Positions 3,884 through 59,456 of a DNA stretch of 64,000 nt are shown piece by piece (positions within the stretch are counted from its first letter, which is position 1; each line of letters opens with the position of its first letter). The notes beneath the pieces were generated by a model, which was not told the DNA's origin, did not search any database, and saw nothing but the letters and a program-made list of their open reading frames with translations. Source of the DNA: Prevotella sp. (GTDB taxonomy: Bacteria > Bacteroidota > Bacteroidia > Bacteroidales > Bacteroidaceae); the NCBI GenBank assembly GCA_017619445.1, contig JAFZSI010000009.1:1-64000 (forward strand), given 5' to 3'. Made by a program: the position numbers and the translations under genes.

Positions 3884-3935
3884 AAAGGATTGCTTTATAC
3901 TCAAATTTTCTAGAAAATTTTTCAGTGAAACGCCA
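3884..3935. repeat. 21-bp-array family, copy 1
   Basis: One 13-bp unit, AAAGGATTGCTTT (3884-3896), is followed 19 bases on by the perfect palindrome AAATTTTCTAGAAAATTT (3903-3920). A degraded unit follows at about 3927. This geometry is the same as in copies 4, 5 and 6. It lies about 20 bases upstream of the pfkB-family promoter, in a divergent spacer. Confidence 0.7.
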
Positions 3936-3955
3936 CGCTATCCATTCTTTTTTCG

Positions 3956-3963
3956 TATTTTTG
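3956..3963 (+). promoter_or_regulatory. Promoter -7 element of the PfkB-family kinase gene
   Basis: TATTTTTG matches TAnnTTTG, 28 bases before the ATG at 3992. It lies just downstream of repeat-array copy 1. Confidence 0.6.
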
Positions 3964-3991
3964 CAGACAGTATCAGCAAATAGACAGACAA

Positions 3992-4924
3992 ATGCGCAAA
4001 GTAATTGGTATAGGCGAGACAGTTCTCGACATCATCTTCAAAAACGGACAGCCCATAGGCGCAGTGCCAGGCGGCTCAGTGTTCAATGGCATCATTTCGC
4101 TCGGAAGGGCTGGCATCAACACCACTTTCATCAGCGAGGCTGGCAACGACCGCGTGGGAAAGGAAATCATCAGCTTCCTCAGGGAAAACGGCGTGAATGC
4201 CGACAATGTGAATATCTTTCCCGACTCCAAGTCGCCCATCTCACTGGCATTCCTTGACGACAACAGCGATGCTGACTACATCTTCTACAAGGACCATCCG
4301 CACGACCAGCTGGACTTTGTGCTGCCCGATGTGCAGGCAGATGACATTGTGATGTTTGGCTCTTATTATGCCGTCAACCCTGTCATCCGTCCGCAGGTGA
4401 TGGGTTTCCTTGACTATGCCCGCAGCCGTGGAGCTATTCTCTACTATGATGTCAACTTCCGCCCCTCTCACCGCAACGATGTGATGAAGGTGACGCCCAA
4501 CATACTGGAAAACCTTGAGATGGCCGACATTGTGCGCGGCAGTCAAGAGGACTTCATGGTGATGTTCAAGAAAGATGACCCCGACCGTGTGTATAATGCT
4601 GAGATTTCGTTCTACTGCAAGAAATTCATCTACACCCAGGGCGAGCAACCCGTGATTCTCAGGGCTGAAGGCGGATTCAGGAAGAGCTATCCCGTGGTGG
4701 TTACCGACACCGTGAGTACCATTGGCGCTGGCGACAACTTCAATGCTGGCTTCGTGTATGGAATGATGAAATATGGCATCACACGCGAGGTGATAGAACG
4801 TGGACTCACCGAACAGCAATGGGACCAGCTCATGGAGTGTGCACAGCTGTTTGCCGCCGAATGCTGCAAGGGCATCAGCAACTCCATCAGCAAGGAGTTT
4901 GGAGAGCAGCTTGCGCTCAAATAA
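3992..4924 (+). CDS. PfkB family sugar kinase (fructokinase/ribokinase-like)
   Basis: The 310-residue protein has the ribokinase-fold signatures. These are an N-terminal GGSVFN plus a GNDRVGKEI segment for sugar binding, and the C-terminal anion-hole and catalytic motif GAGDNFNAGF, in which the Asp is the base. It probably phosphorylates a furanose sugar such as fructose in the cytoplasm. The substrate cannot be fixed from sequence. It starts a plus-strand run of six genes whose spacers are filled with TTCCCAT-type repeats. The start is supported by a promoter 28 bases upstream. Confidence 0.88.
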   Translation: MRKVIGIGETVLDIIFKNGQPIGAVPGGSVFNGIISLGRAGINTTFISEAGNDRVGKEIISFLRENGVNADNVNIFPDSKSPISLAFLDDNSDADYIFYKDHPHDQLDFVLPDVQADDIVMFGSYYAVNPVIRPQVMGFLDYARSRGAILYYDVNFRPSHRNDVMKVTPNILENLEMADIVRGSQEDFMVMFKKDDPDRVYNAEISFYCKKFIYTQGEQPVILRAEGGFRKSYPVVVTDTVSTIGAGDNFNAGFVYGMMKYGITREVIERGLTEQQWDQLMECAQLFAAECCKGISNSISKEFGEQLALK

Positions 4925-4933
4925 CAGCCTCGC

Positions 4934-5030
4934 TCATCTTTTCTCATTCATTCCCATCATTCCCATTCACTCCCATCACTCCCATTCCTCCCATAGTTCC
5001 CATCTCTTCCCATCGATTCCCATAAATAAA
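4934..5030 (+). repeat. TTCCCAT microrepeat spacer 1
   Basis: The spacer between the kinase and flavodiiron genes consists almost wholly of about ten imperfect 9-base units (CATTCCCAT and variants). The same family fills the next spacers at 7599-7646 and 8068-8126, and less clearly 6240-6285. Confidence 0.75.
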
Positions 5031-5040
5031 CCATAAAACC

Positions 5041-6234
5041 ATGACAGAAATCACAAGCAAAATCTTTTACGTTGGTGTAAACGACCGCAACAAGAATCTT
5101 TTCGAAGGCCTATGGCCACTGCCCAATGGCGTTAGTTACAATTCCTATCTCGTGGTGGATGAAAAGGTGTGCCTCATCGATACGGTGGAGGTGGATTTCT
5201 TCGTTCCCTTCATTCAGAACATCCGCGAGGTGATTGGCGACCGTCCCATTGACTACCTGGTTATCAACCACATGGAGCCCGACCACAGCGGCTCGCTGGC
5301 ACTCATCAAGAAGTATTATCCCGATGTCAAGATGATTGGCAACAAGAAAACCTTTGGTATGTTGCAGGGCTTCTATGGCATTGACAGCGACCAGATGGAG
5401 GTGAAAAACGGTGACACCCTGTCGTTGGGAACCACCAACCTCAGTTTCGTGCTCACACCTATGGTGCACTGGCCCGAAACCATGGTGACCCTGTGCAAAA
5501 CCACCGATAAAACCGTGCTTTTCAGTGGCGATGCCTTTGGTTGTTTCGGAGCATTGAACGGTGGCATCATTGACGAACAAATCAACTGCGACACTTTCTG
5601 GCTCGAAATGGTGCGCTACTATTCAAACATCGTAGGCAAATATGGCACTCCCGTGCAGAATGCGCTCAAAAAGCTTGCTGGCATTCAGTTCGACTACATC
5701 TGCGCCACCCACGGACCCGTGTGGCACACCTATATAGATAAGGTGGTCAGTATGTATGACCGCATGAGCCGCTATGAGACAGAGCCAGGACTCGTCATTT
5801 GCTACGGTACCATGTATGGTAACACTGAGCGGGCAGCAGAGGTGATTGCCCGTGCTGCCAGTCAGGCGGGTGTGAAGAACATTGTGATGTACAATGTGTC
5901 GAAAACCCACCACTCCTACATCATCCGCGATGTGTTCCGCTACAAGGCACTCATCGTGGGAGCACCCACCTACAACACCGGGCTCTATCATGAGATGGAC
6001 GTGCTGCTCTCTGAACTGGCCGGAAAGGACATTAAAAACCACCTCATCGGATGGTTTGGCTCCTATGGATGGGCCAGCAAGGCTGTGGCCGAAATTGCCC
6101 GATGGAATGGCGAAAAATTGCACTTCGAACCTGTTGGTGAGCCCGTGGAAATCAAGCAGAGCCTCACCCCAGAGACCTTTGCACAGTGCGAGGCCCTCGG
6201 ACGTGCCATGGCTGAGTGCCTCAAAGGAGAATAA
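5041..6234 (+). CDS. Flavodiiron protein (FprA-type, O2/NO reductase)
   Basis: A 397-residue A-type flavoprotein. The N-terminal metallo-beta-lactamase domain carries the di-iron ligands His77-x-Glu79-x-Asp81 in NHMEPDHSG, followed by MVHWPETM, FSGDAFG and ATHGPVWH. The C-terminal flavodoxin domain starts at about residue 253 (CYGTMYGNTERAAEV binds FMN). Such enzymes reduce O2 to water or NO to N2O with electrons from rubredoxin or NADH, protecting anaerobes from oxidative or nitrosative stress. All six iron ligands appear intact. It is cytoplasmic. Length and domain order are standard. Confidence 0.95.
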   Translation: MTEITSKIFYVGVNDRNKNLFEGLWPLPNGVSYNSYLVVDEKVCLIDTVEVDFFVPFIQNIREVIGDRPIDYLVINHMEPDHSGSLALIKKYYPDVKMIGNKKTFGMLQGFYGIDSDQMEVKNGDTLSLGTTNLSFVLTPMVHWPETMVTLCKTTDKTVLFSGDAFGCFGALNGGIIDEQINCDTFWLEMVRYYSNIVGKYGTPVQNALKKLAGIQFDYICATHGPVWHTYIDKVVSMYDRMSRYETEPGLVICYGTMYGNTERAAEVIARAASQAGVKNIVMYNVSKTHHSYIIRDVFRYKALIVGAPTYNTGLYHEMDVLLSELAGKDIKNHLIGWFGSYGWASKAVAEIARWNGEKLHFEPVGEPVEIKQSLTPETFAQCEALGRAMAECLKGE

Positions 6235-6291
6235 ACCCCGCCTCCATCAATCCCTCTATTTACATCCACTTCCATCCTTCCCACAAAAAAC

Positions 6292-7596
6292 ATGGAGCAA
6301 CTGCTGCACTACTGTTGGAAGCACAAACTTTTTCCGCTTGAGCCGTTGGTTACTGCTGACGGTCAGGCGGTGGAGGTTATTGACCCCGGACTTCACAACC
6401 GCAACAGTGGCCCCGACTTTTTCAATGCCAAGATAAAAATCGGTGGAACGCTCTGGGTGGGCAATGTGGAGATTCATGACCGTGCCACCGACTGGTTCCG
6501 TCATGGCCATGACCGCGATGCTGCCTACGACAATGTGGTGCTGCATGTGTGTGGGCTCATTGACGCCGACATACAGACGCATAGCGGCAACCATCCGCCA
6601 CAGATGCAGCTCACAGTGCCGCCAATGGTGGAGCAAAACTACCAGCAGCTGCTCACAACCGACAGTTATCCTCCTTGTTACCGCCTGATTCCCAGCCTCA
6701 AATCGCTCACCGTCCATGCATGGATGAGTGCGCTGCAGACCGAGCGGCTGGAACAGAAGACCCAGGCCATTGCCCGCCGTGTGGAATTGTGTGATGGCTC
6801 ATGGGAAGCGGCCTATTTCGTCACCATGGCACGCAATTACGGCTTTGGCATCAATGGCGATGCCTTTGAGACGTGGGCATTGAACATTCCCCTCAACTGT
6901 GTGGCTCATCACCGCGATGATTTGTTTCAGGTGGAGGCGTTCTTCATGGGGCAGGCAGGCCTGCTTGAAACCGACACCATTCCCAAATACTACCTGGAAG
7001 ACGCCTTGAAAGAGGGCTATTTCACACGTTTGAGAGGCGAGTATCAATATCTGGCCCACAAGTTCGGGCTCAAGCCCATGGATGTCACACTCTGGCGTTT
7101 CCTTCGCCTGCGTCCACAGAACTTCCCCCACATTCGCATTGCGCAGTTGGCCAATCTCTACCATCAGCATCGGGCAGGGCTCAGCCAGCTGGTGGAATGT
7201 GAGACCGTGGAACAGCTGCAAAAGTTGCTTGAAACCTGCGTCACTCCCTACTGGGAAACCCACTACACCTTTGGCTCCACGAGTTGCAAGACCCAGAAGA
7301 AACTCACGGTTTCATCGCTCAATCTGCTCATCATCAACACCGCCATACCCATGCTTTTTGCCTATGGTAGGCACCGCAGCAACCAACGGCTCTGTGACCG
7401 TGCTTTTGACTTGCTTGAGCAACTCAGGGCCGAGAACAACCACATCACGCGCATGTGGCAGCAATGTGGGCTTGACGTGCACACAGCTGGTGACAGTCAG
7501 GCGCTCATTCAACTGAAAAACAACTATTGTGACCGAAAGGACTGCCTGCGTTGCCGTTTTGGCTATGAGTATCTGAAACGAGCTGAAAGTCAGTAA
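6292..7596 (+). CDS. DUF2851 family protein, function unknown
   Basis: The 434-residue protein matches the Bacteroidetes family DUF2851, recognisable from its N-terminus: a GLHNRNSGPDFFNAKI segment, then GNVEIH and DNVVLHVC. The C-terminus has four cysteines (CDRKDCLRCRFG), suggesting a metal site. The NVEIH region resembles nuclease-like cores, but no catalytic role is established. No signal peptide or membrane segment was seen. It starts 57 bases after the flavodiiron gene within the same run. Confidence 0.85.
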   Translation: MEQLLHYCWKHKLFPLEPLVTADGQAVEVIDPGLHNRNSGPDFFNAKIKIGGTLWVGNVEIHDRATDWFRHGHDRDAAYDNVVLHVCGLIDADIQTHSGNHPPQMQLTVPPMVEQNYQQLLTTDSYPPCYRLIPSLKSLTVHAWMSALQTERLEQKTQAIARRVELCDGSWEAAYFVTMARNYGFGINGDAFETWALNIPLNCVAHHRDDLFQVEAFFMGQAGLLETDTIPKYYLEDALKEGYFTRLRGEYQYLAHKFGLKPMDVTLWRFLRLRPQNFPHIRIAQLANLYHQHRAGLSQLVECETVEQLQKLLETCVTPYWETHYTFGSTSCKTQKKLTVSSLNLLIINTAIPMLFAYGRHRSNQRLCDRAFDLLEQLRAENNHITRMWQQCGLDVHTAGDSQALIQLKNNYCDRKDCLRCRFGYEYLKRAESQ

Positions 7597-7598
7597 CT

Positions 7599-7646
7599 TC
7601 CATTCCTCCCATTCTTCCCATAACTCCCATCATTCCCATCTTTCCT
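7599..7646 (+). repeat. TTCCCAT microrepeat spacer 2
   Basis: The spacer between the DUF2851 and thioesterase genes is made of about five imperfect CATTCCCAT-type units on the coding strand. It contains nothing else. Confidence 0.7.
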
Positions 7647-7652
7647 CAACCA

Positions 7653-8066
7653 ATGAAATACATCTTTGAAACCCGCATGATGGTGCGCGACTATGAATGC
7701 GACATCGAGGGCATTGTAAACAACGCCAACTACCTGCACTACATGGAACACACGCGCCACTTGTTCCTCAAGGAGTGCGGCCTGAGCTTTGCCGAAATGC
7801 ACCGCAAGGGCATTGATGCTGTGGTGGCCCGCATGAACCTGCAGTTCAAGGTTCCCCTGCGCAGCGATGATGAGTTCATCTCGCGCCTTGCGCTCACCAA
7901 GGAGGGCATTCGCTATGTGTTCCGTCAGGACATCTTCCGTGCCAACGACAATCAGCTCTGCTTCCGTGGCACTGCCGAACTGGTGTGCATTGTCAACGGA
8001 AGACTGGCCAACAGTCCCGAATATGATGCAGCTTTTGCCCATTTCATCGAGAAAAACAGCCCATAA
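7653..8066 (+). CDS. YbgC/FadM-type acyl-CoA thioesterase (hotdog fold)
   Basis: At 137 residues this is a single 4HBT hotdog domain. The family signature near the N-terminus, ECDIEGIVNNANYLHYMEHTR, is a variant of the YbgC pattern in which Asp is followed by G-[IV]-[VN] and a Tyr. It hydrolyses acyl-CoA or acyl-ACP thioesters in the cytoplasm. The short-chain versus long-chain preference is not readable. It lies between DUF2851 and dprA in the same operon-like run. Confidence 0.85.
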   Translation: MKYIFETRMMVRDYECDIEGIVNNANYLHYMEHTRHLFLKECGLSFAEMHRKGIDAVVARMNLQFKVPLRSDDEFISRLALTKEGIRYVFRQDIFRANDNQLCFRGTAELVCIVNGRLANSPEYDAAFAHFIEKNSP

Positions 8067-8067
8067 C

Positions 8068-8126
8068 ACCCCATCATTCTCATCATTCCCAATCCTCCCA
8101 TCACTCTCATAATTCCCATCATTTCC
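8068..8126 (+). repeat. TTCCCAT microrepeat spacer 3
   Basis: About six imperfect 9-base units (CCCATCATT, CTCATAATT and so on) fill the spacer before dprA. The last unit runs to within a few bases of the dprA ATG at 8130. Confidence 0.7.
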
Positions 8127-8129
8127 CCC

Positions 8130-9248: not shown

Positions 9249-9279
9249 CCGTTGCCCTGAAAAAACGCCTTATTTCCGC

Positions 9280-9379
9280 CAACCAATGCTTTGCATTCAT
9301 AAACCAATGCTTTGCGTTCATAAAGTGGCACTTTAGCGTCACAAAGTGATGCTTTACGAATAAATTTTCTAGAGAATAT
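9280..9379. repeat. 21-bp-array family, copy 2
   Basis: Four 13-bp units start at 9280, 9301, 9322 and 9343, an exact 21-bp period. Examples are AAACCAATGCTTT, AAAGTGGCACTTT and AAAGTGATGCTTT. The array ends in AAATTTTCTAGAGAATAT (9362-9379), whose last two bases are the first two of the dusB start codon (9378-9380). Any protein bound to the last element, or a hairpin formed by it in RNA, would cover the dusB ribosome-binding region. Confidence 0.85.
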
Positions 9380-10493: not shown

Positions 10494-10600
10494 CAGAGAG
10501 ACATAGAGATTTTTTGACAATTAGACAATTAGACGAAAAGACAATTAGACAATTATACTTTTCGACAGAAAGACTTTTATACATTTAGAAAGAGAGAATA
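10494..10600. repeat. GACAATTA / GACAGAGAGA microrepeats after dusB
   Basis: The beginning of the 322-base spacer 10494-10815 consists of imperfect copies of GACAGAGAGACA and AGACAATT (8-base unit). The rest holds a 12-bp palindrome TTCGCGCGCGAA (10660-10671) and the promoter of the next gene. No coding region was seen. Confidence 0.65.
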
Positions 10601-10687
10601 ATAGATGGCAAGTATTGTTTTCATCCGTTAAAAATACTTGTTTATCTATTATTTTTATGTTCGCGCGCGAAATATTTCCGTTTTTCC

Positions 10688-10718
10688 TTGTTTGTTTCAT
10701 CAAAAATACATATTTTTG
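10688..10718 (+). promoter_or_regulatory. Promoter of the first large secreted protein gene
   Basis: TTG at 10688-10690, 20 bases, then TATTTTTG at 10711-10718. The ATG lies 97 bases downstream, leaving an A-rich leader. Confidence 0.65.
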
Positions 10719-10815
10719 TACGCTGTATCAGTGTGTGCAAGTTTTTTAAAAACTACAAAACCTGAAAACAACGATAGTACGAGAGAATCATAAACATTTT
10801 TAAATACTTACAACT

Positions 10816-14568: not shown

Positions 14569-14587
14569 GAGTGAATGAAAGTTCTCA

Positions 14588-30051: not shown

Positions 30052-30067
30052 GTTTTGTCGGGGGTGC

Positions 30068-30143
30068 GGGGCGATTCTCTGTGTTTGTGGAGTGATTCTT
30101 TGTTTTTGCAGAGTGATTCTTTACGATTGCAAAGTTACGCTTT
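30068..30143. repeat. 21-bp-array family, copy 3 (degenerate)
   Basis: Units start at 30068, 30089, 30110 and 30131, again exactly 21 bp apart: GGGGCGATTCTCT, GGAGTGATTCTTT, AGAGTGATTCTTT, AAAGTTACGCTTT. The right half-site (CTTT) is better kept than the left. No TCTAGA palindrome is attached. It starts 16 bases after the methyltransferase stop. Confidence 0.7.
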
Positions 30144-37066: not shown

Positions 37067-37142
37067 AAAGTGGCACTTTAGAATCATAAAGTGGCACTTT
37101 GGAGTCGTAAAGAGGCACTTTACGGTGATAAAGGCTATAATT
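37067..37142. repeat. 21-bp-array family, copy 4
   Basis: Units at 37067, 37088, 37109 and 37130 (exact 21-bp period): AAAGTGGCACTTT twice, AAAGAGGCACTTT, then a degraded AAAGGCTATAATT. The array begins 6 bases after the ruvB stop and ends 28 bases before the GH67 ATG. No TCTAGA palindrome is attached. Confidence 0.85.
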
Positions 37143-40640: not shown

Positions 40641-40696
40641 AAAGTGCCACTTTACGCATAAATTTTCTAGAGAATTTGCGCGTAAAGCAATGCTTT
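40641..40696. repeat. 21-bp-array family, copy 5
   Basis: AAAGTGCCACTTT (40641-40653), then AAATTTTCTAGAGAATTT starting 19 bases later (40660-40677), then AAAGCAATGCTTT starting 24 bases after that (40684-40696). The same 19/24 spacing is seen in copies 6 and 7. Confidence 0.85.
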
Positions 40697-40714
40697 GGAA
40701 CGAAGGTATAAAGG

Positions 40715-40762
40715 AATGCGGTGTTAACTGCGTGCTTTGCGCGCGTTAACACCGCATTTTTC
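40715..40762 (+). terminator. Terminator of the phosphatase gene
   Basis: AATGCGGTGTTAAC (40715-40728) pairs perfectly with GTTAACACCGCATT (40745-40758), 16-base loop, followed by TTTTC. The spacer to the converging esterase (40763-40860) holds GGAGTTA-type repeats and no gene. Confidence 0.8.
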
Positions 40763-44706: not shown

Positions 44707-46068
44707 TCATTGGGTTGTGCGCAGGGTGGAGATGTCAATTTTTTTGCCGAGGCGGCTTTTTGTCGAGCGAATGGCCTGCTCCGAGCAGCAGAACGAGTTG
44801 GCTTTCTGCTCATCGCTTTTGCCGTAGTGCTCCATGATGCAGAAGAAAGTCTCCTTGGGTGTCAGCGGCACGGGGCAGTTGTCTATTTGCTTTGCCAACG
44901 TCGGGTTCACCTGCCAGAGCACCTGCGTCGCCTGTCGTTCCTGTTGCTTGCCGTATTGCGAGATGTTGTTTCCGGCGATGATGTCGTAAAGCACGTCGAT
45001 ACCGGCTTTTGTCTCGGCAATGGAACCGCTGAAGATGTGGTCAATGGGCAGCGAGGCAGCGATGGCGTGCAGTTTTTCGCCCATCTGTTGACGCAGTTGC
45101 TTCATTTCCTGCTGGTGGCGGCGGTAGAGTCGCTGCTGTTTGCGGCTGTACCACCACGCCGGGAGGAACACTGCGTTGAGCAGGACGATGACGGCCAGCG
45201 AGTACCACCATTTCTGTTCGGCTTTCTCGCGCTCCGACACCTCGCGCTCGTACTGGTCCTGCACCTTGAGCAGTTGCACCTGGTCGCGCGAGCGGTCCAT
45301 CAGCTGGCTCACGTTCTCCATAAGCCGATATGCCTCCAGCGCCTTCTGGTAATTGCCCTGCTGCAGGAAGTATTCATATTGTATGCGCAGGCGGCTGTAG
45401 CTCACCTGCGTGTTGTTGCTCTCGTTGAAACGGCTGAGCAGCTGTTGTAGCTTGCCCTTGTCGCCCTGCTGCTGGTAGATGTGGCTCAGCAGCGTGAAAG
45501 CGTTGCCGAGCGAGGCCGTGTCGGTTGCCAGTTCGAGCGCCTTTGTGGCATTGATTTCGGCCTCGGCAATGCTGTCGTGCAGCAACTGGTGGTAGGCCTG
45601 GTTCTTTAGCATGGTTGACAGCTGGCTCTTGTCGGCCCATTGGCTGAGTGCCATGGCGTGCTGGTTGGTTTGGAAGGCGTGTTCGGTCTCTCCAAGCTCG
45701 TTGAGCACGTGTGCCTTGCCTATGAGCACGTCGATAACGAGGCTCTCCTTGCGCGTGGCCCATGCGTGGGGCAGTGCGTAGTCGAAGTAGATGAGGGCCA
45801 GCTGCAAGTCGCCGCTGCTGGCGTTTATCCACCCGATGTGTTGAAACACACGGCAGGCTTTCTGGTGGTCGGTCTGCGGTGTGATGGCCTGCTCGGCCTC
45901 TTTCAGGCTCAGCATGGCCGCAGTCAGGTCGTGGCGTTCCAAGTGTGCCATGCCCTCGTCCAACAATCGGCCCACCAGTTGGTCGGACTGTGCGTTGCGG
46001 TCTTGACTACAGGCCGCTGCACAGAGCACGATGGCCAGAGCAATGAAAATGTAAGGCAGATGTCTCAC
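44707..46068 (-). CDS. Membrane-anchored TPR regulator-like protein (lipoprotein start at GTG)
   Basis: The GTG ending at 46068 gives 453 residues with a clean lipoprotein signal (MRHLPYIFIALAIVLCAAAC). The ATG 72 bases upstream would bury that signal and lies upstream of the only promoter seen. The protein contains about six TPR-like helical repeats (residues 30-290), a transmembrane segment (WWYSLAVIVLLNAVFLPAWW), a coiled-coil stretch, and a C-terminal region with CSEQAIRSTKSRLGKKI that looks like a helix-turn-helix. This architecture is common in Bacteroidales as a one-component sensor-regulator. It lies directly upstream of GH3 and the esterase and may control them. Confidence 0.75.
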   Translation of the reverse strand: MRHLPYIFIALAIVLCAAACSQDRNAQSDQLVGRLLDEGMAHLERHDLTAAMLSLKEAEQAITPQTDHQKACRVFQHIGWINASSGDLQLALIYFDYALPHAWATRKESLVIDVLIGKAHVLNELGETEHAFQTNQHAMALSQWADKSQLSTMLKNQAYHQLLHDSIAEAEINATKALELATDTASLGNAFTLLSHIYQQQGDKGKLQQLLSRFNESNNTQVSYSRLRIQYEYFLQQGNYQKALEAYRLMENVSQLMDRSRDQVQLLKVQDQYEREVSEREKAEQKWWYSLAVIVLLNAVFLPAWWYSRKQQRLYRRHQQEMKQLRQQMGEKLHAIAASLPIDHIFSGSIAETKAGIDVLYDIIAGNNISQYGKQQERQATQVLWQVNPTLAKQIDNCPVPLTPKETFFCIMEHYGKSDEQKANSFCCSEQAIRSTKSRLGKKIDISTLRTTQ

Positions 46069-46182: not shown

Positions 46183-46395
46183 AAGAATCATTCCCAGCGT
46201 GGCAAGAACAGTTTCATGCGTGGCAAAAATATCTTCCGATTCTACGAAACGTAAATGTCTGGTTTGCGGTTGAATTTTCTAGAAAATTTCATCGTAAAGT
46301 GCAGCTTTGTGTTCGTAATTGTACGTATGGCAAAAATAAAGCATTACTTTACGATGATAACTGATAGGTTTATGGGAAAATTCTCTAGAAAATTT
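46183..46395. repeat. 21-bp-array family, copy 6 (longest)
   Basis: Two 18-bp palindromes bracket the array core: GAATTTTCTAGAAAATTT (46272-46289) and AAATTCTCTAGAAAATTT (46378-46395). Recognisable 13-bp units are AAATGTCTGGTTT (46253, 19 bases before the first palindrome), AAAGTGCAGCTTT (46296, 24 bases after it) and AAAGCATTACTTT (46338, two periods later). Upstream, GGCAAGAA-type degraded units recur at 46180, 46201 and 46222, still in 21-bp steps. Confidence 0.75.
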
Positions 46396-46507
46396 GAGTA
46401 TAACTCGCCACGTTGTTCCCATGAACCGCAAAAAGGGCATAACAACATGCCGTGCGGCTGTGTCAAAACCGCTTTCCGGAAGAATGCAACTCGCTGACAA
46501 TGAGGTT

Positions 46508-49520: not shown

Positions 49521-49534
49521 ACTCTTTTCTGTCT

Positions 49535-49590
49535 ATTTTGATGCTTTACGGTTGAATTTTCTACAAAATTTGGGCGTAACTCTATGCTTT
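49535..49590. repeat. 21-bp-array family, copy 7 (degenerate)
   Basis: A degraded unit ending ATGCTTT (49535-49547), then GAATTTTCTACAAAATTT 19 bases on (49554-49571), then AACTCTATGCTTT 24 bases on (49578-49590). Sequence has drifted but the 19/24 spacing is kept. Confidence 0.7.
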
Positions 49591-49657
49591 ATGGTCTGCA
49601 TTGCGGGAAATGTGCGAACAACTCGTCGTTTTTGTTTCGTGGAATGCTGATTATTTT

Positions 49658-49731
49658 GATAAAAACTTCACGCTCGGAAAAGAAAACAAGCTTTCTTTGC
49701 ACTCACTTACTCAGTTTTTTGTATTTTTGCA
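49658..49731 (+). promoter_or_regulatory. Promoter module of ung (copy of the gpmI cassette)
   Basis: About 90 percent identical by eye to 46789-46863, including CTTCACGCTCGG, the AAAGAAA-ACAAGC-TTTCTTT inverted repeat and CACTCACTTACTCAG. The -7 element is TATTTTTG (49722-49729). Confidence 0.7.
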
Positions 49732-49777
49732 AGCAAATGTTGCAACCAACCGTAAACAATTCACAGTTATTTATTTG

Positions 49778-50443: not shown

Positions 50444-50457
50444 AAGGAACAACAACG

Positions 50458-51093: not shown

Positions 51094-51112
51094 CATTCTG
51101 AAATCTTGCTTA

Positions 51113-51991: not shown

Positions 51992-51999
51992 CGTTTATA

Positions 52000-53205: not shown

Positions 53206-55715
53206 TTGATGGTTTTTGTTTTGCCTCCGTCTATGGTCAGCTCTTTTTCCGTGCCGTTATATTGCACGATTACTTTGGTCTTTTGTGTGGTTTTGTTGTG
53301 GATTTCGGCAGTCACCACCTTGCCGTTACGCCAGGTCATGGCCACTTCTAACCCGCCGCGTGTGCAGATGCCTTTCACATGTCCTGATGGCCATGCCGCA
53401 GGCAGTGCGGGCAGTAGGTCAATGGCTGTTACGGGTGTTTCTTTTGTTGCTGTCACATGGCTCTGCACCAGCATCTCGCAAACACCTGCTGTACCACCAA
53501 AATTGCCGTCAATCTGGAAGGGTGGGTGAGCGTCCATAAGGTTTGGATAAGTTCCTCCCGAACGTCGTCTGTCGGGCCCTTTGTAATTGTCGGGCGATAC
53601 ATAGGTGAGAAGTTTCTGGTAGATGTGGTAAGCCTGCTCTGGTTCCCTCAGGCGGGCCCACAAGTTGATGCGCCATCCCGTGCTCCACCCAGTGGTCTTG
53701 TCGCCTTTTATTTCCAGTGAGCGGCGGCATGCGTTGCCTAACAGGTTGCTGTTCTGTAGGCTTACCAATGGACTGTTGGCGTTGGTCAACTTGTTGAACA
53801 ACGGATTTACAACCGCGGTGAGGTGATTGCCAGGGTACAGGCCAATGAGGTGACTTTGGTGTCGGTGTTGGAAATCGAAGTCATCCCAGTCGAAGAACCA
53901 TTCGTTGAGGTCGCCCATGTGTCCGATGGTATAGGGATGTAGGGCATTCAGTGCCTCCTGCTGTTGTTCTATGAGTCGGTCGTAGGGGTTGAGCCTTTGT
54001 TCTGCGCTGATGGTGTTGGCCAGCAACTCACGGATAATGGCCATATCGGCAGTACCTCCGTAGCAAGTCATTCCGTGGTAGCCTTTGTCAGTCACGTACT
54101 CATTTTCGGGTGATGTGCTGGGTGCTGTGATGAGTTCCTCGGGCTTGTTGGGGTTGTTTATGAGCCATGTGAGGCAGAAATCAACGGCTCCCTGCATAAG
54201 TGGCAGTGCTGTCTGTTGCAAGTATTGAGTGTCCTGTGTGAACAGAAATTTCTCCCACAGCTGATTGACGAGCCAGGCACCGCCCATGTTCCAGTTTGCC
54301 CACTCTGGCTTTTCGTTTTTCTCGCCTACAGGATTGGTCATAGCCCAGATGTCGCTGTTATGGCTGCTGCACCATCCACGGTCAATGCCATAGTAGTTTT
54401 TTGCGGTGAAACGGCCATTTTCTGACAATGCTTTAACAAATCCGTCGAGCGGCATGGCCATTTCTGCGAGGTTTGTTGTGAATGCTGGCCAGTAGTTTTC
54501 CTCCAAGTTAATGTTGACGGTATAGTTGCCGCGCCACGGCGAGAATTTATGGGGTGTCCAAAGGCCCTGCAGATTGGCGGGAACGTTGGGTGTGCGCGAA
54601 CTGCTGATGAGCAGGTATCGGCCATATTGGAAGTATAGCGTTTCGAGGTAGGGGCGGAGGGTTGCGATGGATTGGTTGCCAGCTGTAGCACTTGCCTTAA
54701 ATGCTTTGCCTTCGGCTGTCGGTTGCAGGCTGTCGGTGTAGTCGAGCAGCATCTTGTCGGTGGGCCTGTCGTTGTTGGGCTGGGCACCTTCAATGTGCAG
54801 CTGCATGCGTGTGAAGAATTGTCGGTAGTCGTCAATATGGCGTTGCCGAAGCTGTTCGTAGGAGTAGTTCTGCAAGTGCCAGGCATCATCGGCGGCCTGC
54901 TCGATATAAGGTGCGCCCTGCGTGACGGGATGGCGGTCGAAGCCGTTGAAACTGGTCTCGTTGACAAAGTAAATCACGGCTTCAGTGGCTCCTGTGATAA
55001 GCAATGTTGAGTCGGTTGCCGTACACTGGCCGTCGGTAAGCCTTGTCAGCAGATTGCAGCAGAAGTGAATGCTGTTGTTCGGGTCGCCAATGGCATGTCC
55101 GGTCATGGTTAGCTGGTTGGGCGATGCTTTCACAGCGTGTGGAACCTGTGCTGTGAGCTGCAGTTCAAGGTTGATGCGCTGCTTGTTGTCGGCGCTGATG
55201 CGCATGGCCACCACTTTGTCGGGATTCGATGCGAAACACTCGCGTGTGAACGTTGTTCCACCTTTTTTATAATATACGTGCGCAATGGCACTGTCCAGAC
55301 TCAGTTCGCGTCGGTAACCCGTATAATCACCGCCGTCGCGGTCGATGATGTGGAGTGTTGCCAAGGGCTGATAGTACTGCGAATTGTGGCCTTGCACGTG
55401 CAGTTGCAGCGAGTCGGCCAGTGCGTAATCCTCGTTGAACAATGCTTTTCTTATCTCAGGAATCCACTTCGATGCACCTGCATCCTCGTTTCTGTCAACA
55501 GGCTGACCTGTCCACAAGGTAATATCGTTCAGATAGATGCTGTCGTTGTCGGGTGCGCCGTAGAGCAATGCTCCCAACTTTCCGTTGCCAATCGGTAATG
55601 ACTCTTCGAAGTAAGTAGCAGGTCGGTCGAACCACAGCCGCATGGGCAGTTGGTCTTGTGCCAGCATGGCCGTTGCGAAGAGCAGAGTGAGCGAGAAGGT
55701 GGTTGTTCGTTTCAT
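53202..55715 (-). CDS. Secreted GH95 alpha-L-fucosidase-type glycosidase
   Basis: An 837-residue GH95 enzyme with a signal peptide (to TAMLAQ). Family signatures are complete: RLWFDRPATYFEESLPIGNG and LNDITLWTGQP at the N-terminus, the Asn pair in YTVNINLEENYW, the catalytic Glu in APSTSPENEY, and QIDGNFGGTAGVCEML near the C-terminus. GH95 removes alpha-1,2-L-fucose (some members L-galactose) by inversion. Host glycans or plant xyloglucan are possible sources. It follows a lipoprotein gene by 74 bases and overlaps the next gene by 4. Confidence 0.93.
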   Translation of the reverse strand: MKRTTTFSLTLLFATAMLAQDQLPMRLWFDRPATYFEESLPIGNGKLGALLYGAPDNDSIYLNDITLWTGQPVDRNEDAGASKWIPEIRKALFNEDYALADSLQLHVQGHNSQYYQPLATLHIIDRDGGDYTGYRRELSLDSAIAHVYYKKGGTTFTRECFASNPDKVVAMRISADNKQRINLELQLTAQVPHAVKASPNQLTMTGHAIGDPNNSIHFCCNLLTRLTDGQCTATDSTLLITGATEAVIYFVNETSFNGFDRHPVTQGAPYIEQAADDAWHLQNYSYEQLRQRHIDDYRQFFTRMQLHIEGAQPNNDRPTDKMLLDYTDSLQPTAEGKAFKASATAGNQSIATLRPYLETLYFQYGRYLLISSSRTPNVPANLQGLWTPHKFSPWRGNYTVNINLEENYWPAFTTNLAEMAMPLDGFVKALSENGRFTAKNYYGIDRGWCSSHNSDIWAMTNPVGEKNEKPEWANWNMGGAWLVNQLWEKFLFTQDTQYLQQTALPLMQGAVDFCLTWLINNPNKPEELITAPSTSPENEYVTDKGYHGMTCYGGTADMAIIRELLANTISAEQRLNPYDRLIEQQQEALNALHPYTIGHMGDLNEWFFDWDDFDFQHRHQSHLIGLYPGNHLTAVVNPLFNKLTNANSPLVSLQNSNLLGNACRRSLEIKGDKTTGWSTGWRINLWARLREPEQAYHIYQKLLTYVSPDNYKGPDRRRSGGTYPNLMDAHPPFQIDGNFGGTAGVCEMLVQSHVTATKETPVTAIDLLPALPAAWPSGHVKGICTRGGLEVAMTWRNGKVVTAEIHNKTTQKTKVIVQYNGTEKELTIDGGKTKTIK

Positions 55716-55789
55716 TGTGTATGCTTGTTTTTATATTGCTGCAAATAATCTCATTTTCTTATAGGTTGTTGCTTGTCTGCAAACAGTTA

Positions 55790-56752
55790 CTAATCTATGA
55801 TGGTGCTTTCAAGCCCCGTGTAGGGTTCGTTGCCGTGGGTAAGGAGGTTGTCAATGAGGTTGCGGTTCCATTGTTCCACCTCGTTGGGCTGTTTGATTGC
55901 CTTTAGCTTGTTGAGCATGAGCTGCCAGTAGGGTTTGTCGAAATTGTAGATGAGAAACTCCATGTCGAGCACGTCAGTACTGAGCCATTTCCATCCTGGG
56001 TCTTCGGCATATTGCAGTCTGATGGTGTTTTCATCGCCGTAGTTCACCTCCAGTTCGCCAGTCTCGCCAATCATGTTGCAGTAGTGCAGGTTAACACCTT
56101 TGTCGGCAGGGGCAAAGGCCATGTGCCATCGCCCAGGTGAAAGGCGGATTTTGTCGGTAAGGTCTCCATTGCCGTCTTCGATGAAGAAATAGTTCATGTC
56201 GGGGCTGTCGGGCAATATGGGGCCTCTCATGGTGTCGTCGGTGATGGTGATGAGGCCGTCTTTGGTAGGTTCAAACTTGCTGGTCAGCATCCGTTTGTAG
56301 CCACGGTTGCGGAATGCTTTCAGGTCGTTGCATTCAATAAGCGTTAAAGCAATGGTCTCACCGTTATAAGCCGTGAGTGTGGTGATGTCGCCCACTTTTT
56401 GGGCCACGAAACGGGCACCCTGGCCAATCATTTCCTTCTTGGGCGATGTTTCCTGATAGACGCCATTGCCTTCGGGCTTGAGTGTGAGTTTCAGTTCGCC
56501 TTTTGTGGCAGAAACAACGAATTCATCGTTGTTTTTGGAAATATTCATGATACCCATATCCCAGTTTGCCATTGTTCCAATGCCGTCGATTGTGGCCGTG
56601 GTTGGGTTGCCTGTTTCCTCTTCAGCGGCCTTTTCTGACTGTTCGACAGGTTGCTGCGTGTTGTCGCTGTTGTTATTGGCTGGCTTCTTGTCGTTGCAGG
56701 CCGCGAGTGCCATGATGGCCGTTGCCATAATCAGGAAAGAAGATGTTTTCAT
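55790..56752 (-). CDS. Predicted lipoprotein of unknown function upstream of GH95
   Basis: Starting at the ATG that ends at 56752 gives 320 residues with a lipoprotein signal (MKTSSFLIMATAIMALAAC). A longer frame starting 78 bases upstream would hide it. An Asn/Gln/Glu-rich linker follows, then a domain with IDGIGTMANWDMGIM and a C-terminal helical part (FDKPYWQLMLNKLKAIKQ). I do not recognise the family. Its place as first gene of the GH95 group suggests a surface role, but this is inference only. Confidence 0.7.
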   Translation of the reverse strand: MKTSSFLIMATAIMALAACNDKKPANNNSDNTQQPVEQSEKAAEEETGNPTTATIDGIGTMANWDMGIMNISKNNDEFVVSATKGELKLTLKPEGNGVYQETSPKKEMIGQGARFVAQKVGDITTLTAYNGETIALTLIECNDLKAFRNRGYKRMLTSKFEPTKDGLITITDDTMRGPILPDSPDMNYFFIEDGNGDLTDKIRLSPGRWHMAFAPADKGVNLHYCNMIGETGELEVNYGDENTIRLQYAEDPGWKWLSTDVLDMEFLIYNFDKPYWQLMLNKLKAIKQPNEVEQWNRNLIDNLLTHGNEPYTGLESTIID

Positions 56753-56847
56753 GATGTTTGTGTGTTTTGATAATGAATGTTGGTTTTGCAAAGTAACAAA
56801 AAAAATATGATTTTGCCTGCACTTTCTCAAGAAAATTTGCTTTTTCC

Positions 56848-56878
56848 TTGGCTGTTTGTCAAGATTTTGCTATCTTTG
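56848..56878 (+). promoter_or_regulatory. Promoter of lemA
   Basis: TTG at 56848-56850, 20 bases, then TATCTTTG at 56871-56878. The ATG at 56975 is 96 bases downstream. Confidence 0.6.
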
Positions 56879-56974
56879 TCGGGTAATAACCTTTTTCAGG
56901 GAGCGGCTCTGCTGTCTCCCATTGGTTTGTGTGGCCGCAACCTTTTGCAATTATTCACCTAAAACAATAAGATT

Positions 56975-57553
56975 ATGGTAACAGCATTAGTTATTTTGTT
57001 AGTCATTATTCTCGGCATCGCGTTGCTGATTGGTCTTTACATTTTCTCCACGCAGCGCAAGTTGGTAAACCTCGACGAGCTTTGCAAGAACGCGTTCAGC
57101 CAGATTGCCGTTCAGCTCAACTCACGTTGGGATGCCGTTATGGCACTTGCCAAAATGACGGCACAGTACAGCAAACACGAGTCCGAAACCATTATCAAGG
57201 CCATTGAGGCACGCCGTCAGGCTGCTCCAGTGACCACCCCGCAGCAGTTCAACGAGCAGCAGGGTGCCATTAGCGACATTCTGGGCCGACTGATGGTGGT
57301 ACACGAGGCTTATCCCGAGCTGAAGGCCAACGAGCAGTACATGAAGACCATGGAAAGCATCAACGAATACGAGGAAAAGGTGCGCATGAGCCGTATGGTT
57401 TACAATGACACCGCCACCCAGATGAACCGCATGGTGCGCCAGTGGCCCTCAAGCTTCGTTGCCAGCATGCTCAACTTTGGCGAGAAAGAATATCTCAAGG
57501 TTGATGAGGAGAAAAAGCAGAGCTATCCCAATATTGAAGAAGCATTCAAATAA
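56975..57553 (+). CDS. LemA family membrane protein
   Basis: A 192-residue protein with one N-terminal transmembrane segment (residues 2-26) and a helical-bundle domain typical of LemA: RKLVNLDELCKNAFSQIAVQL, NRMVRQWPSSFVA. The C-terminal FGEKEYLKVDEE variant of the usual PF-F motif is present. Function is unclear. In many bacteria LemA lies beside a DUF2207 or TPM-domain membrane protein, and here the DUF2207 gene follows after 35 bases, consistent with a shared envelope role. Confidence 0.92.
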   Translation: MVTALVILLVIILGIALLIGLYIFSTQRKLVNLDELCKNAFSQIAVQLNSRWDAVMALAKMTAQYSKHESETIIKAIEARRQAAPVTTPQQFNEQQGAISDILGRLMVVHEAYPELKANEQYMKTMESINEYEEKVRMSRMVYNDTATQMNRMVRQWPSSFVASMLNFGEKEYLKVDEEKKQSYPNIEEAFK

Positions 57554-57588
57554 ACCACTCTTAGAGCCCGAACAAAAAACGTTTTTCT

Positions 57589-59289
57589 ATGAGCAGACGT
57601 TTGCCATATTTCCACCGTGGCATTGCACTCGTGGCAATGCTCACGGTGGTTTTGCTTTCTGCTGCTGCCCATGAGATGAGGCAAATGCGGGTGTTTGTCG
57701 ATTTGCTGCCGGGCGGCGATGCCTACATCACCGAGGTTCGCGACATGTACATCGGCAGCGAGGGCACCGAAATCTATATCCCCATTGGCAACCTCAACGG
57801 CAGCCAGGTGGAACTCATCGGCGTTGAGGAGCAAGGCACGAAATACAACAACATTGGCGACTGGGATGTGGACCGAAGCCGCTCGTTCAAGGCCGGAAAA
57901 TGCGGCGTGGTGAGAAAGTCGGACGGTGGCGTGGAAATCTGCTGGGGCGTGGGCGACGAAGGCTCGCACACCTACATCACCACCTATCTGGTGACAAACC
58001 TGCTGCGCGGATATTCCGATGCCGACGGCTTCAATTACATGTTCGTTAACCCCGGAATACGCCCGCTGCCCGAGAATGTGGAACTGCAGGTGAGGCGCAG
58101 CCAGCTCACAGACGGCAAGCTGGAACAGCTGCCGCTGCCTGCCGACAGCGTCAAGGCGTGGGCTTTCCGCTTCAGAGGCAATGTTGAGATTGGCGACAGC
58201 ATCGTGCGCGTCACCACCAGCGAGGCTTTCAGCTCGGAGAGCGCCATGATTGTGATGTGCCGCTTCGAAAAGGGTATGTTCAACCCAGAATTGGAAACCG
58301 AGAAGAGTTTTGAGGCCGTCAGGGAGCGTGCCTTCGAAGGCAGCGACTACGGTGTCAAGGAACGCTCTGCTTGGGATACGTTCTGGGAAGAAACCATCTA
58401 TCTCATCTGCCTCGCCTTGTTCTTCTTCGTGCCGCTCTTGACGGCCATCTACACTTGGTGGCAAAAGCGCAAACTGAAAAAGTCCATCGAGAAAGACTTG
58501 ACGTGGTATCGCGAAATCCCCTACAAAGGCGACCTGAAACACTCACAGATGATGCTGAAGGAACTCAGCTACAAAGGCATGAGCACAGAAAACCTGCTGC
58601 AAGCCTATGTGCTGCGCATGATTTACAACGGCCAGCTTCTCATCAAAGACGTGCGCTATCCCAAGACAGGCAAGACAGGCCAGTTGCTCGGCATTGGCAA
58701 ACCCATGACGACCGAACAGCTCAGCGGCGAAGACGTTTACCTGATGCCACGCATGTATGAAATCTTCAAGGCTGCTGCGGGCGACGACCAGATACTGCAA
58801 CCCAAGGAGCTGACCAACTATATGGGCAAGCACGCCGAACAACTCGAAACCTTCGCCCAACGTCTGAACAAGAAAGGCTCTCTCAGCACGGCGAAACGCG
58901 AGTTCGAAAAAATGCGCGACTTGGTTGGATTCCGCAAATTCCTCAAGGAGTTTACCATTTCCAACGAACGCCATGCGCGCGAGGTGACCCTCTGGAAAGA
59001 ATATCTGGTGTTCGCAACCCTGTTTGGCTGTGCCGACCAGGTGCGCAAGGACATGAAGCAAATCAATCCCGAATTCTTCCAGATGGACAAAATCACCAGC
59101 CAGCTGGAAACAAGCACGCTTATACTGCCTAACTACTCGCTGGCACTCGACAACGGTATTAACCGCATCAACCGTGCCGTGGCAGAACGCGAAGCACAGG
59201 CGCGCCGCTCATCAGGCGGCGGTGGCTTCTCGTCGTGGGGCGGTGGCGGCGGCTTCTCAGGCGGCGGCGGTGGCGGCGGCGTGAGATAG
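57589..59289 (+). CDS. DUF2207 predicted membrane protein
   Basis: The 566-residue protein has a signal peptide (to LLSAAAHE), an N-terminal beta domain (RVFVDLLPGGDAYITEVRDMY, about 25-250) that matches DUF2207, one membrane segment (LICLALFFFVPLLTAIYTWW, about residue 270), a cytoplasmic helical region, and a glycine-rich C-terminus (FSSWGGGGGFSGGGGGGG). The last feature is characteristic of the family. It pairs with LemA. The role is unknown, possibly envelope maintenance. Confidence 0.9.
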   Translation: MSRRLPYFHRGIALVAMLTVVLLSAAAHEMRQMRVFVDLLPGGDAYITEVRDMYIGSEGTEIYIPIGNLNGSQVELIGVEEQGTKYNNIGDWDVDRSRSFKAGKCGVVRKSDGGVEICWGVGDEGSHTYITTYLVTNLLRGYSDADGFNYMFVNPGIRPLPENVELQVRRSQLTDGKLEQLPLPADSVKAWAFRFRGNVEIGDSIVRVTTSEAFSSESAMIVMCRFEKGMFNPELETEKSFEAVRERAFEGSDYGVKERSAWDTFWEETIYLICLALFFFVPLLTAIYTWWQKRKLKKSIEKDLTWYREIPYKGDLKHSQMMLKELSYKGMSTENLLQAYVLRMIYNGQLLIKDVRYPKTGKTGQLLGIGKPMTTEQLSGEDVYLMPRMYEIFKAAAGDDQILQPKELTNYMGKHAEQLETFAQRLNKKGSLSTAKREFEKMRDLVGFRKFLKEFTISNERHAREVTLWKEYLVFATLFGCADQVRKDMKQINPEFFQMDKITSQLETSTLILPNYSLALDNGINRINRAVAEREAQARRSSGGGGFSSWGGGGGFSGGGGGGGVR

Positions 59290-59304
59290 CTCCGCAAACA
59301 CCAC

Positions 59305-59347
59305 AATCAGGGATTCGGTCATTGCCTTCCGAATCCCTGATTTTTAT
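59305..59347 (+). terminator. Terminator of lemA-DUF2207
   Basis: AATCAGGGATTCGG (59305-59318) pairs perfectly with 59329-59342, 10-base loop, then a T run (59341-59345). Confidence 0.85.
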
Positions 59348-59356
59348 TATATCGCT

Positions 59357-59456
59357 AAATTTTCTAGAGAATTTAATCGTAAAGTGGCACTTTGGAACTG
59401 TAAAGTGGCACTTTGGAATCGTAAAGCAATGCTTTGTTTTCACAAACCAATGCTTT
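59357..59456. repeat. 21-bp-array family, copy 8 (best preserved)
   Basis: AAATTTTCTAGAGAATTT (59357-59374), then units at 59381, 59402, 59423 and 59444: AAAGTGGCACTTT twice, AAAGCAATGCTTT, AAACCAATGCTTT. The first offset is 24 and the rest exactly 21. It lies between a terminator and the next promoter. Confidence 0.9.

Follow-up and report, generated by a model that had tools for sequence, protein, structure and literature searches.

Intergenic arrays on a 21-bp grid around a CTAG-centred palindrome in Prevotella, a possible docking lattice for a DNA-shaping protein

Introduction

Repeats of 21-22 bp are typical of iterons. Among dispersed intergenic repeats, PINSR (PMC4755523) is present in 177-184 copies with a 188-bp consensus lacking terminal inverted repeats, and about three-quarters of its places are common to two strains; section 3.4 of that paper makes no mention of an internal 22-bp structure. 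The BrickBuilt MITE of Porphyromonas gingivalis (PMC4596501) is also intergenic, and its 19 copies are composed of 23-nt tandem repeats (about two helical turns) with a leader and a tail that have small inverted-repeat ends; a palindromic centre is not described in the part of the paper used here. The sections consulted on REP/BIME and REPIN-RAYT systems report many intergenic copies with species-specific sequence, and REPs and BIMEs as protein binding sites (PMC2817692, PMC3116915, PMC8049555, PMC6006769, PMC12306157). The DNA gyrase motif of E. coli is described as 130 bp long, degenerate and symmetric about its centre, with flanks in which G+C is periodic at 10.75 bp, and gyrase cleavage sites are overrepresented in a subset of BIME-2 (PMC6379681).

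We analysed positions 1-64,000 (forward strand) of contig JAFZSI010000009.1 from Prevotella sp. (GCA_017619445.1; source genome G000); this 64,000-nucleotide stretch is referred to as the window. The original prediction for this DNA had proposed an element with no described likeness in Bacteroidales; PINSR and BrickBuilt are described neighbours.

Results

Units and centres in the window

The exact unit AAAG-N5-CTTT occurred 14 times in the window, compared with 1.22 expected (sd 1.08; 100 dinucleotide shuffles, largest 4), and the only lags between 13 and 60 bp among these units were 21 (five pairs), 42 (three pairs) and 43 (one pair). The predicted 21-bp spacing is real. A TCTAGA-type 18-mer had been assigned to six arrays, and this was borne out by seven centres in six arrays when up to two changes were allowed (Table 1). 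CTAG is scarce in the window, with 12 sites compared with 249 expected by composition and 86 by a Markov estimate, and six of the 12 are centres. Most of the predicted arrays stood, but those at 30068 and 46183 are mostly degenerate, and one unit (49578) is recognisable in that at 49535. Evidence for the array from 30068 includes a lag of 21 picked up at 30052 in a periodicity scan. The stretch 46183-46255 appeared by eye to be a different 21-bp repeat whose phase does not match that of units 46296 and 46338.

Table 1. Arrays in the window and their units, centres and surroundings
Position	Strand	Units	Centre	Surroundings and remarks
3884..3920	.	3884, AAAGGATTGCTTT	3903-3920, perfect, AAATTTTCTAGAAAATTT	divergent intergenic region
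9280..9379	.	9301, 9322, 9343; 9280 degenerate	9362-9379	between tandem genes
30068..30143	.	30131, single exact unit	none	degenerate 21-bp array
37067..37121	.	37067, 37088, 37109	none	6 bp past end of called gene
40641..40738	.	40641, 40684; 40726 AACT-type	40660-40677	convergent genes either side
46183..46414	.	46296, 46338, 46359, 46402	46272, 46378, 106 bp apart	distinct 21-bp repeat 46183-46255
49535..49590	.	49578, AACTCTATGCTTT	49554, variant (TCTACA), GAATTTTCTACAAAATTT
59357..59456	.	59381, 59402, 59423, 59444	59357-59374	one-sided array

Geometry of the grid

Across the G000 genome there were 64 exact 21-bp pairs and 167 copies of the palindrome AATTYTCTAGARAATT (a 16-mer), with none of either in the control, so that the genome-wide 21-bp excess that the original prediction proposed to look for was found. 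Exact units close to a centre sit on a single 21-bp grid. In the window and 80 further G000 stretches, units and centres formed 138 pairs no more than 130 bp apart, with offsets of only -125, -124, -103, -82, -61, -40 and -19 on the upstream side and of only +24, +44, +45, +66, +87, +88, +108, +128 and +129 on the downstream side; the predicted flanking positions, -19 and +24, are among them. The one-base shifts are probably due to the half-step of a second centre. Adjacent centres in G000 and its nearest relative, G191, were spaced by 43+21n, with one exception of 107 and one of 191 (one base off), and those in other species by 65 (19 cases) or 66 (one case), that is, 43+22. When the centres were masked in 18 pair loci of other species, the lags most enriched over the control were 22, 11, 44, 65, 55 and 43. 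The power of WW dinucleotides at 10.5-10.75 bp was 3.1-4.5 times that of the control, and a profile fit gave a flank period of 10.5-10.55, the profile having been folded and its symmetry thereby assumed. Neighbouring G000 units were often exact direct copies of each other (19, compared with 2.0 in shuffles).

Comparison of G000 with G191

Profiles anchored on 93 G000 centres and 58 G191 centres carried periodic information to about 110 bp from the centre in both genomes. Beyond 105 bp the information per position did not exceed 0.13 bit in G000 and 0.23 bit in G191, and the signal faded out with neither a second conserved block nor fixed ends in either profile. The A+T profiles correlated best at shift 0 (r 0.51), and their maxima agreed within 2 bp, apart from one additional G000 maximum, whereas beyond 30 bp the two consensus sequences were identical at just 8-10 of 21 positions per unit. 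Between the two genomes the centre, the A+T phase and some array positions persist, and the unit sequence is rewritten. The predicted selection on geometry is supported by these species, in which the units differ but the centre is common to both and the A+T maxima nearly coincide. AA/TT alone gave no 10.5-bp peak in G191, the strongest tested period being 12, and classical A-tract curvature is therefore unsupported there.

Conservation in relatives, the other expectation, held in part. Among the 23 G000 array regions with an aligned flank, nine had a G191 centre within 700 bp, compared with one of 35 array-free regions (Fisher p 0.0006), and a centre is likewise present in the G191 counterpart of array 46183..46414, which lies upstream of the iPGM gene. 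G191 units at shared positions were rewritten rather than copied, and orthologous regions were mostly unalignable outside genes. On the other side, 14 of the 23 regions had no nearby G191 centre, which counts against a docking lattice; 313 of 398 same-genus genomes lacked the 16-mer; and covariation of half-sites was weak or negative.

Half-sites and pairing

The palindromic unit of the original prediction does not hold as a rule, because half-sites mix in G000, where near-palindromic units of AAAG/AAAG type made up 120 of 386, and G191 units are strongly non-palindromic. Watson-Crick pairing of positions 4 and 10 was 0.09 in G191 (0.34 when shuffled) and 0.41 in G000 (0.45 when shuffled); by this measure, the stem-loop unit of REP and REPIN sequences was found in neither genome. 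Pairing of positions 5 and 9 in G000 (0.52 compared with 0.44) exceeded all 500 shuffles and is a weak signal. Adjacent G000 units were slightly more reverse-complementary than shuffled ones (0.498 compared with 0.459, reached by 2 of 400 shuffles; six exact cases compared with 2.0), whereas adjacent G191 units were less so (0.322 compared with 0.437).

A long stem spanning the centre was rejected, since the arms flanking it were no more complementary than shuffled partners and showed no covariation beyond these. In the window, Rfam at gathering thresholds matched just two tRNAs. Covarying stems or an Rfam match, as expected of a terminator or RNA element, were therefore not found, the weak inverted signals being confined to G000. 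Of the two possibilities that had been put forward, a protein platform stays the likeliest, and tandem RNA hairpins are disfavoured by the non-palindromic G191 units and by the arms.

Genomic placement

All 86 placed G000 clusters were intergenic. The median distance of arrays was 133 bp from called stops and 238 bp from called starts, and arrays also occurred in convergent regions; array 3884-3920 ends 71 bp short of a predicted start at 3992. Convergent, tandem and divergent regions numbered 23, 40 and 20 with an array and 15, 107 and 30 without one in G000, a comparison that is biased because a region next to a convergent one can never be convergent. The corresponding numbers were 6, 25 and 7 with an array and 40, 166 and 44 without in G191 (no convergent excess), 7, 12 and 2 compared with 7, 36 and 12 in G084 (non-significant, p 0.10), and 4, 2 and 0 compared with 9, 33 and 13 in G061 (p 0.04, with just six array regions). 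Supercoil handling would be consistent with an excess of arrays between convergent genes, but such an enrichment is not claimed here.

Arrays in other Prevotella

The 16-mer was found in 85 of the 398 same-genus genomes, in 1 to 167 copies, so that the element is not private to G000. Among the matches listed, eight of nine two-copy genomes had their copies exactly 65 bp apart. Other Prevotella carry 22-bp arrays with different words, some of which look like simple repeats in the periodicity scan. Arrays sit within larger dispersed repeats in Tb.RUG.330, RGIG3222 and RGIG10013, and some arrays in other Prevotella belong to symmetric elements of about 430 bp. Many arrays have no centre, and species differ in their period (21 or 22); both facts count against a docking lattice.

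G084, in which the 16-mer had no match, carries a repeat of fixed length without a TCTAGA centre at 23 places in 200 kb; at 18 of these it measures 182-194 bp. It is built of four units with AAAG/AAAC half-sites that follow a 22-bp grid, units 1 and 3 being near reverse complements in 16 of 20 copies. This repeat is probably PINSR, judging from its length, its number of copies and the two large contigs that make up the genome. The tryptophanase match in G084 falls below the family cut-off. A 194-bp copy matched neither G000 nor G191 at E 0.001.

A viral origin was set aside. The three-unit pattern matched two viral contigs, the centre pair one and the single 18-mer 24. The ORFs of the contig matched by the centre pair look cellular by eye. 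Several three-unit matches (in Nostoc, Flavobacterium, Spirochaetaceae and Lachnospiraceae, among other taxa) resemble unrelated tandem repeats and did not count as relatives.

Neighbouring genes

Twenty loci were fetched because they hold a centre, and 17 of them hold pairs. The HU-HIG family (PF18291, scanned for one member) was present in six, five of which also had a VapE-like gene, and was absent from 14; its sole other match, in 1.90 Mb of other fetched sequence searched with identical queries, adjoins a centre pair in G077 (L230). In L334, L338 and L350 the pair lies between divergent HU-HIG-like and VapE-like/BT4734 genes. In L351 a TCTAGA centre is partnered by CTCGAG at a distance of 65 bp, and in L343 the pair adjoins the VapE-like gene, more than 1.5 kb from the HU-HIG gene. 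HU-HIG had no match in the sampled G000 or G191 sequence, and VapE had none in the window and the 80 G000 stretches. One conserved neighbour gene for all pairs was accordingly rejected, the best being HU-HIG (6/20) and VapE-like (5/20).

A RAYT-like HUH protein in G000, the sole PF01797 match there, is below the Pfam and NCBIfam cut-offs, and a copy in G191 lies about 250 bp from a centre. This family, A1, was present in 62 of 100 same-genus genomes and absent from array-bearing G084 and G061; G084 has no PF01797 match either, and G061 has one to another Y1 transposase. A RAYT/HUH transposase as a required partner was therefore rejected, and the cognate RAYT expected in every genome with REP or REPIN sequences was not found throughout the array-bearing genomes.

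Discussion

With its 167 centres, exclusively intergenic clusters and lack of fixed ends, the G000 element resembles PINSR as described in the cited part of PMC4755523. It differs in sequence, as judged from the G084 copy, a stand-in for the published consensus, which was unmatched in G000 and G191. Terminal inverted repeats and fixed ends, which mark MITEs and BrickBuilt, are lacking in the anchored profiles, and where the cited part on BrickBuilt describes no palindromic centre, six arrays of the window have one of TCTAGA type. In contrast to REPs and REPINs, each unit is a 13-bp pair of half-sites, the grid is exact at 21/22 bp, and RAYT presence does not track the arrays in the compared Prevotella genomes. 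The gyrase motif is degenerate over its 130 bp; the arrays have base-specific words in both centre and units, and their periodic flanks extend about 110 bp to either side.

Sister species retain the spacing with altered letters, which suggests that the arrays serve a DNA-shaping protein as a docking platform. We give about an even chance to the reading of each element as a docking lattice between genes, on which a protein would bend or wrap DNA. The CTAG-centred palindrome would be the conserved, sequence-specific seat, and the half-sites on either side would recur each half unit, at about 10.5-11 bp, so that A+T-rich contacts would stay on one helical face as far as about 110 bp in either direction. 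Unit letters would drift and be homogenised locally by tandem duplication, with the phase retained. The role would probably be chromosomal and BIME-like (local bending, supercoil handling or insulation between genes) rather than that of a single regulon. The best lead to the protein is the HU-like HU-HIG gene beside some low-copy pairs, whose product is a candidate on grounds of position.

The arrays may instead be selfish or neutral dispersed repeats of REP/REPIN, MITE or PINSR type, perhaps aided in trans by a transposase and needing no host function, which we regard as possible though somewhat unlikely. Spacing would be kept because copies inherit it. Two points here count against the docking lattice: arrays copied as a whole would retain their spacing without any protein, and exact direct copies are frequent among neighbouring units. 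Patchy presence with species-specific words, direct unit duplication, the arrays inside larger dispersed repeats, the PINSR-like G084 repeat of similar build and the RAYT-like proteins of G000 and G191 argue for selfish copies, whereas the profiles that fade without fixed ends, the rewriting of G191 units at shared positions and the absence of A1 from G084 and G061 argue against them. It is improbable that the arrays are origin-like iterons of a small mobile replicon whose cassette combines HU-HIG with a VapE-like primase-helicase, and that some lineages have them scattered as non-autonomous copies: the pairs of L334, L338, L350, L351 and L343 and the repeat length fit such an origin, but most fetched loci have no HU-HIG gene, and neither gene was matched in the sampled G000 sequence.

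Operators of one transcription factor with a large regulon would explain the palindromic centre and the position of array 3884-3920 before a start, but arrays lie nearer to stops, occur in convergent regions and are many for one operator, which makes this very improbable. Transcribed tandem RNA hairpins or terminators are equally improbable. The near-palindromic G000 units, the 5/9 pairing, the slight complementarity of adjacent G000 units and the paired units 1 and 3 of the G084 repeat are consistent with hairpins; the strongly non-palindromic G191 units make them unlikely, as do the adjacent G191 units, the cross-centre arms and the Rfam result, and they were rejected as a general rule, with weak G000 signals remaining.

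The docking lattice may be extended, quite tentatively and with considerable doubt, to a genus-wide intergenic class that would conserve helical geometry instead of sequence, having a CTAG seat, half-sites on an 11- or 10.5-bp lattice, lineage-specific words and a dedicated HU-HIG protein building nucleosome-like wraps at fixed places; PINSR and other unexplained Prevotella repeats would then be its dialects. Should the arrays be selfish copies, they illustrate well how repeat words can be exchanged at fixed places from one sister species to another. If geometry is what selection sees, they would form a natural counterpart, in bacteria, to nucleosome-positioning DNA, and several unexplained repeats in this genus, common in gut and mouth, would share one anatomy.

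Arrangement of units and centres

The original prediction described eight intergenic arrays in which a 13-bp AAAG-N5-CTTT palindrome (the unit) recurs every 21 bp and is associated with an 18-bp TCTAGA palindrome (the centre). The unit occurred 14 times in the window compared with 1.22 expected copies, and lags of 13-60 bp between exact units were 21 bp (5 pairs), 42 bp (3) and 43 bp (1), with no others. Seven centres lay within six of the window arrays. The observation stands, and its extent exceeds what had been proposed. In the genome that contains the window (G000; incomplete, 2.87 Mb in 81 contigs), two-unit pairs at exactly 21 bp were found 64 times (reversed-pattern control, 0), and the 16-mer AATTYTCTAGARAATT, which is its own reverse complement, was found at 167 places (control, 0).

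The window and eighty stretches picked around listed arrays or centres were analysed together, giving 81 sequences and 524 kb in total. All 138 unit-centre pairs at most 130 bp apart fell on the grid −19−21k / +24+21k, plus or minus one base. Since the flanking unit starts are 43 bp apart, the centre occupies its own slot, 21.5 bp from either neighbour. In the fetched stretches, neighbouring centres were spaced 85, 106 (four times), 107, 127 (twice), 148 (three times) and 191 bp in G000, and 43 (three times), 85 (three times), 106 and 127 bp in the nearest relative, G191. These spacings equal 43+21n, with two exceptions in G000 (107 and 191 bp) that miss it by a single base.

Genes were called by a purpose-written codon-usage script. 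Of 90 clusters, 86 were placeable between two called genes and all 86 were intergenic, with flanking genes in tandem (40), convergent (24) or divergent (22) orientation. The 58 G191 centres, as well as 23 PINSR-like places and seven arrays in the same-genus genomes G084 and G061, respectively, also lay outside called genes.

CTAG was strongly under-represented in the window (12 occurrences versus 249 expected from composition and 86 by a Markov estimate), and six of the 12 were element centres. It was also rare in G084 and G061, and not in every same-genus stretch.

Composition of the units

In G000, 386 of 744 grid slots beside 93 centres passed an A/T-edge filter. The half-sites were AAAGC (204), AAAGT (197), AAACC (105), AACTC (56) and rarer others, mixed within units. 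In G191, 210 of 464 slots passed, and the commonest units joined an AACG, AATG, ATCG or ATTA half to an ATCT or AACT half. Unit positions 4 and 10 paired at 0.09 in G191 compared with 0.34 in shuffles, which indicates that the G191 unit is neither a hairpin nor a simple homodimer site. In G000, the 4/10 pairing was at or below shuffles (0.41 versus 0.45) and the 5/9 pairing was above them (0.52 versus 0.44; largest shuffle, 0.50). The predicted palindrome is better described as a pair of half-sites that is palindromic at times, not always. Arm complementarity across the centre showed no excess over shuffled partners in G000 or G191.

Distribution in the genus

The two-unit pattern was present in six of 100 same-genus genomes including G000, and was strong in three (G022, 73; G000, 64; G040, 15). 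The 16-mer was present in 85 of 398 genomes including G000, at 1 to 167 copies each. Among the matches listed, eight of nine two-copy genomes had their 16-mers exactly 65 bp apart, the exception being G302. Twenty loci from 17 genomes were fetched, chosen mostly for showing 65-bp pairs; 17 carried centre pairs, always spaced exactly 65 bp, that is, 43+22. In L351, the TCTAGA centre had a CTCGAG version 65 bp away, and L352 (from G223) had G000-like AAAG/AAAC units. With centres masked, the top six enriched lags in 18 pair loci (the 17 plus L353) relative to control stretches were 22, 11, 44, 65, 55 and 43. Around the midpoint of these loci, inverted symmetry reached 0.357 versus 0.294 in controls (sd of single controls, 0.016).

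A lag survey covered one 20-kb stretch from each of 18 other same-genus genomes, chosen mainly for few contigs. Lag 22 was found at nine of 20 tandem places (lags 12-44) in seven genomes, and lag 44 at two more. These places differ in words, and some resemble simple repeats; that of G350 was AAAGTTGAACTTT. G061 had AAATTGGGCGAAATT-type units with a 22-bp period.

Other repeats were observed at individual loci. L334 had TGTAGGCTT-type repeats on one side, in its right flank. In Prevotella sp. RGIG3222 (L026, L029, L058, L085), symmetric dispersed elements of ~430 bp had GGGTGTCAGGGTGACAG...CTGTCACCCTGACACCC arms flanking a 3-unit array. In Bacteroidetes MAGs (L019, L025, L032, L070, L078), AAAGTCGCACTTT or AAAGTGCGACTTT arrays occurred among GATAACTATC-type repeats.

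Relation to a published repeat

The closest published item found was PINSR, presented in section 3.4 of PMC4755523 as a 188-bp intergenic repeat of P. intermedia with 177-184 copies and no known function. In open-licence PMC papers, PINSR was found by name in PMC4755523 alone, and none of the papers listed described a lattice of 21 or 22 bp. G084, a 2.7-Mb genome made up of a 1.97-Mb and a 0.71-Mb contig, was picked through a tryptophanase match that falls below the family cut-off. Within 200 kb it contained a repeat at 23 places, of which 18 measured 182-194 bp. Genome-wide, 40 of 293 candidates were scored and all 40 matched. This repeat holds four units with AAAG/AAAC half-sites on a 22-bp grid, and is probably PINSR, judging by its length, its copy number and a genome in two large contigs. 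It had no match in G000 or G191; G222 had at least 40 short matches spanning 38 bp of it.

Candidate partner proteins

A1, a RAYT-like HUH family with an extra C-terminal part, was detected in 62 of 100 genomes (E 0.001), with one copy in G000 and six in G191, one of the six about 250 bp from a centre. A1 had no match in G084 or G061, and was therefore ruled out as a partner required by arrays in general. The family had up to 13 matches per genome, some being two pieces of one gene.

Coordinates of individual features
Feature	Location	Observation
453-aa gene	window 44707-46068	adjoins array at 46272; no Pfam match at 0.001
Array	window 46272	G191, near the matching centre: A1-family HUH gene in place of the 453-aa gene
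tRNA	window 63613-63684	contains two of the 12 CTAGs
374-aa RAYT-like HUH protein (L266)	G000:C47:58985-60106	conserved C-terminal part without Pfam match; unit-like AAAGCAGCGGTTT directly after the stop codon
Direct repeats, ~11 bp	L353:760-1260	AGCCTACACAA and reverse complement; inverted orientation, outside the centre pair
Second, distinct 22-bp array in G084	L240:1644	ATATGACGTCATAT palindromes

The only gene families in more than two of the 20 fetched loci encoded an HU-HIG-like protein (six loci; named by Pfam from L334) and a VapE-like putative primase-helicase (five; named from L334, L338 and L350). An HU-HIG gene also adjoins a pair in G077 (L230), the sole match when the same queries were run against a further 1.90 Mb of fetched sequence. 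The NCBIfam HU family scored below cut-off in all three small proteins tested. HU-HIG is a lead for the partner protein, short of proof, as the presence of a centre was the criterion for choosing the loci and 14 of the 20 lacked an HU-HIG gene.

Conserved grid, divergent words

G191 was the best same-genus match for the array-adjoining iPGM gene (87% identical). The main rival explanation, that the arrays are a copied, selfish repeat of the REP or PINSR kind, is possible and less likely than the reading favoured below. Adjacent units were exact direct copies 19 times in G000 (2.0 shuffled) and 17 times in G191 (5.4), a frequency indicating that tandem duplication is one route by which words spread. 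For 58 G000 intergenic regions, a flank could be aligned to the G191 sequence that was fetched. A G191 centre lay within 700 bp for 9 of the 23 regions that have a centre and for 1 of the 35 that have none (p 0.0006, Fisher test), most G191 stretches having been picked for holding a centre, which affects both rows equally. The other 14 of the 23 had no G191 centre within 700 bp in that sequence.

With sequences folded outward from the centre, periodic information reached about 110 bp in both genomes. Their A+T maxima lay within 2 bp of each other, save one extra in G000, and the profile correlation was highest at shift 0 (r 0.51). The A/T dinucleotide period was 10.5 bp in G000 and 10.75 bp in G191; AA/TT alone peaked at that period in G000, not in G191. 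Consensus agreement was 14/16 within 16 bp of the centre and 7/14, 10/21, 10/21 and 8/21 farther out, and in the locus pairs inspected the same 18-mer had GTCGTGAGATAATTT-type units around it in G191, where G000 had the AAAG type. The arrays resemble the E. coli gyrase motif, described in PMC6379681 as symmetric with flanks of 10.75-bp period, in form only. The best reading, to which we give about an even chance, is that the arrays may form a phased lattice on which a DNA-bending protein docks.
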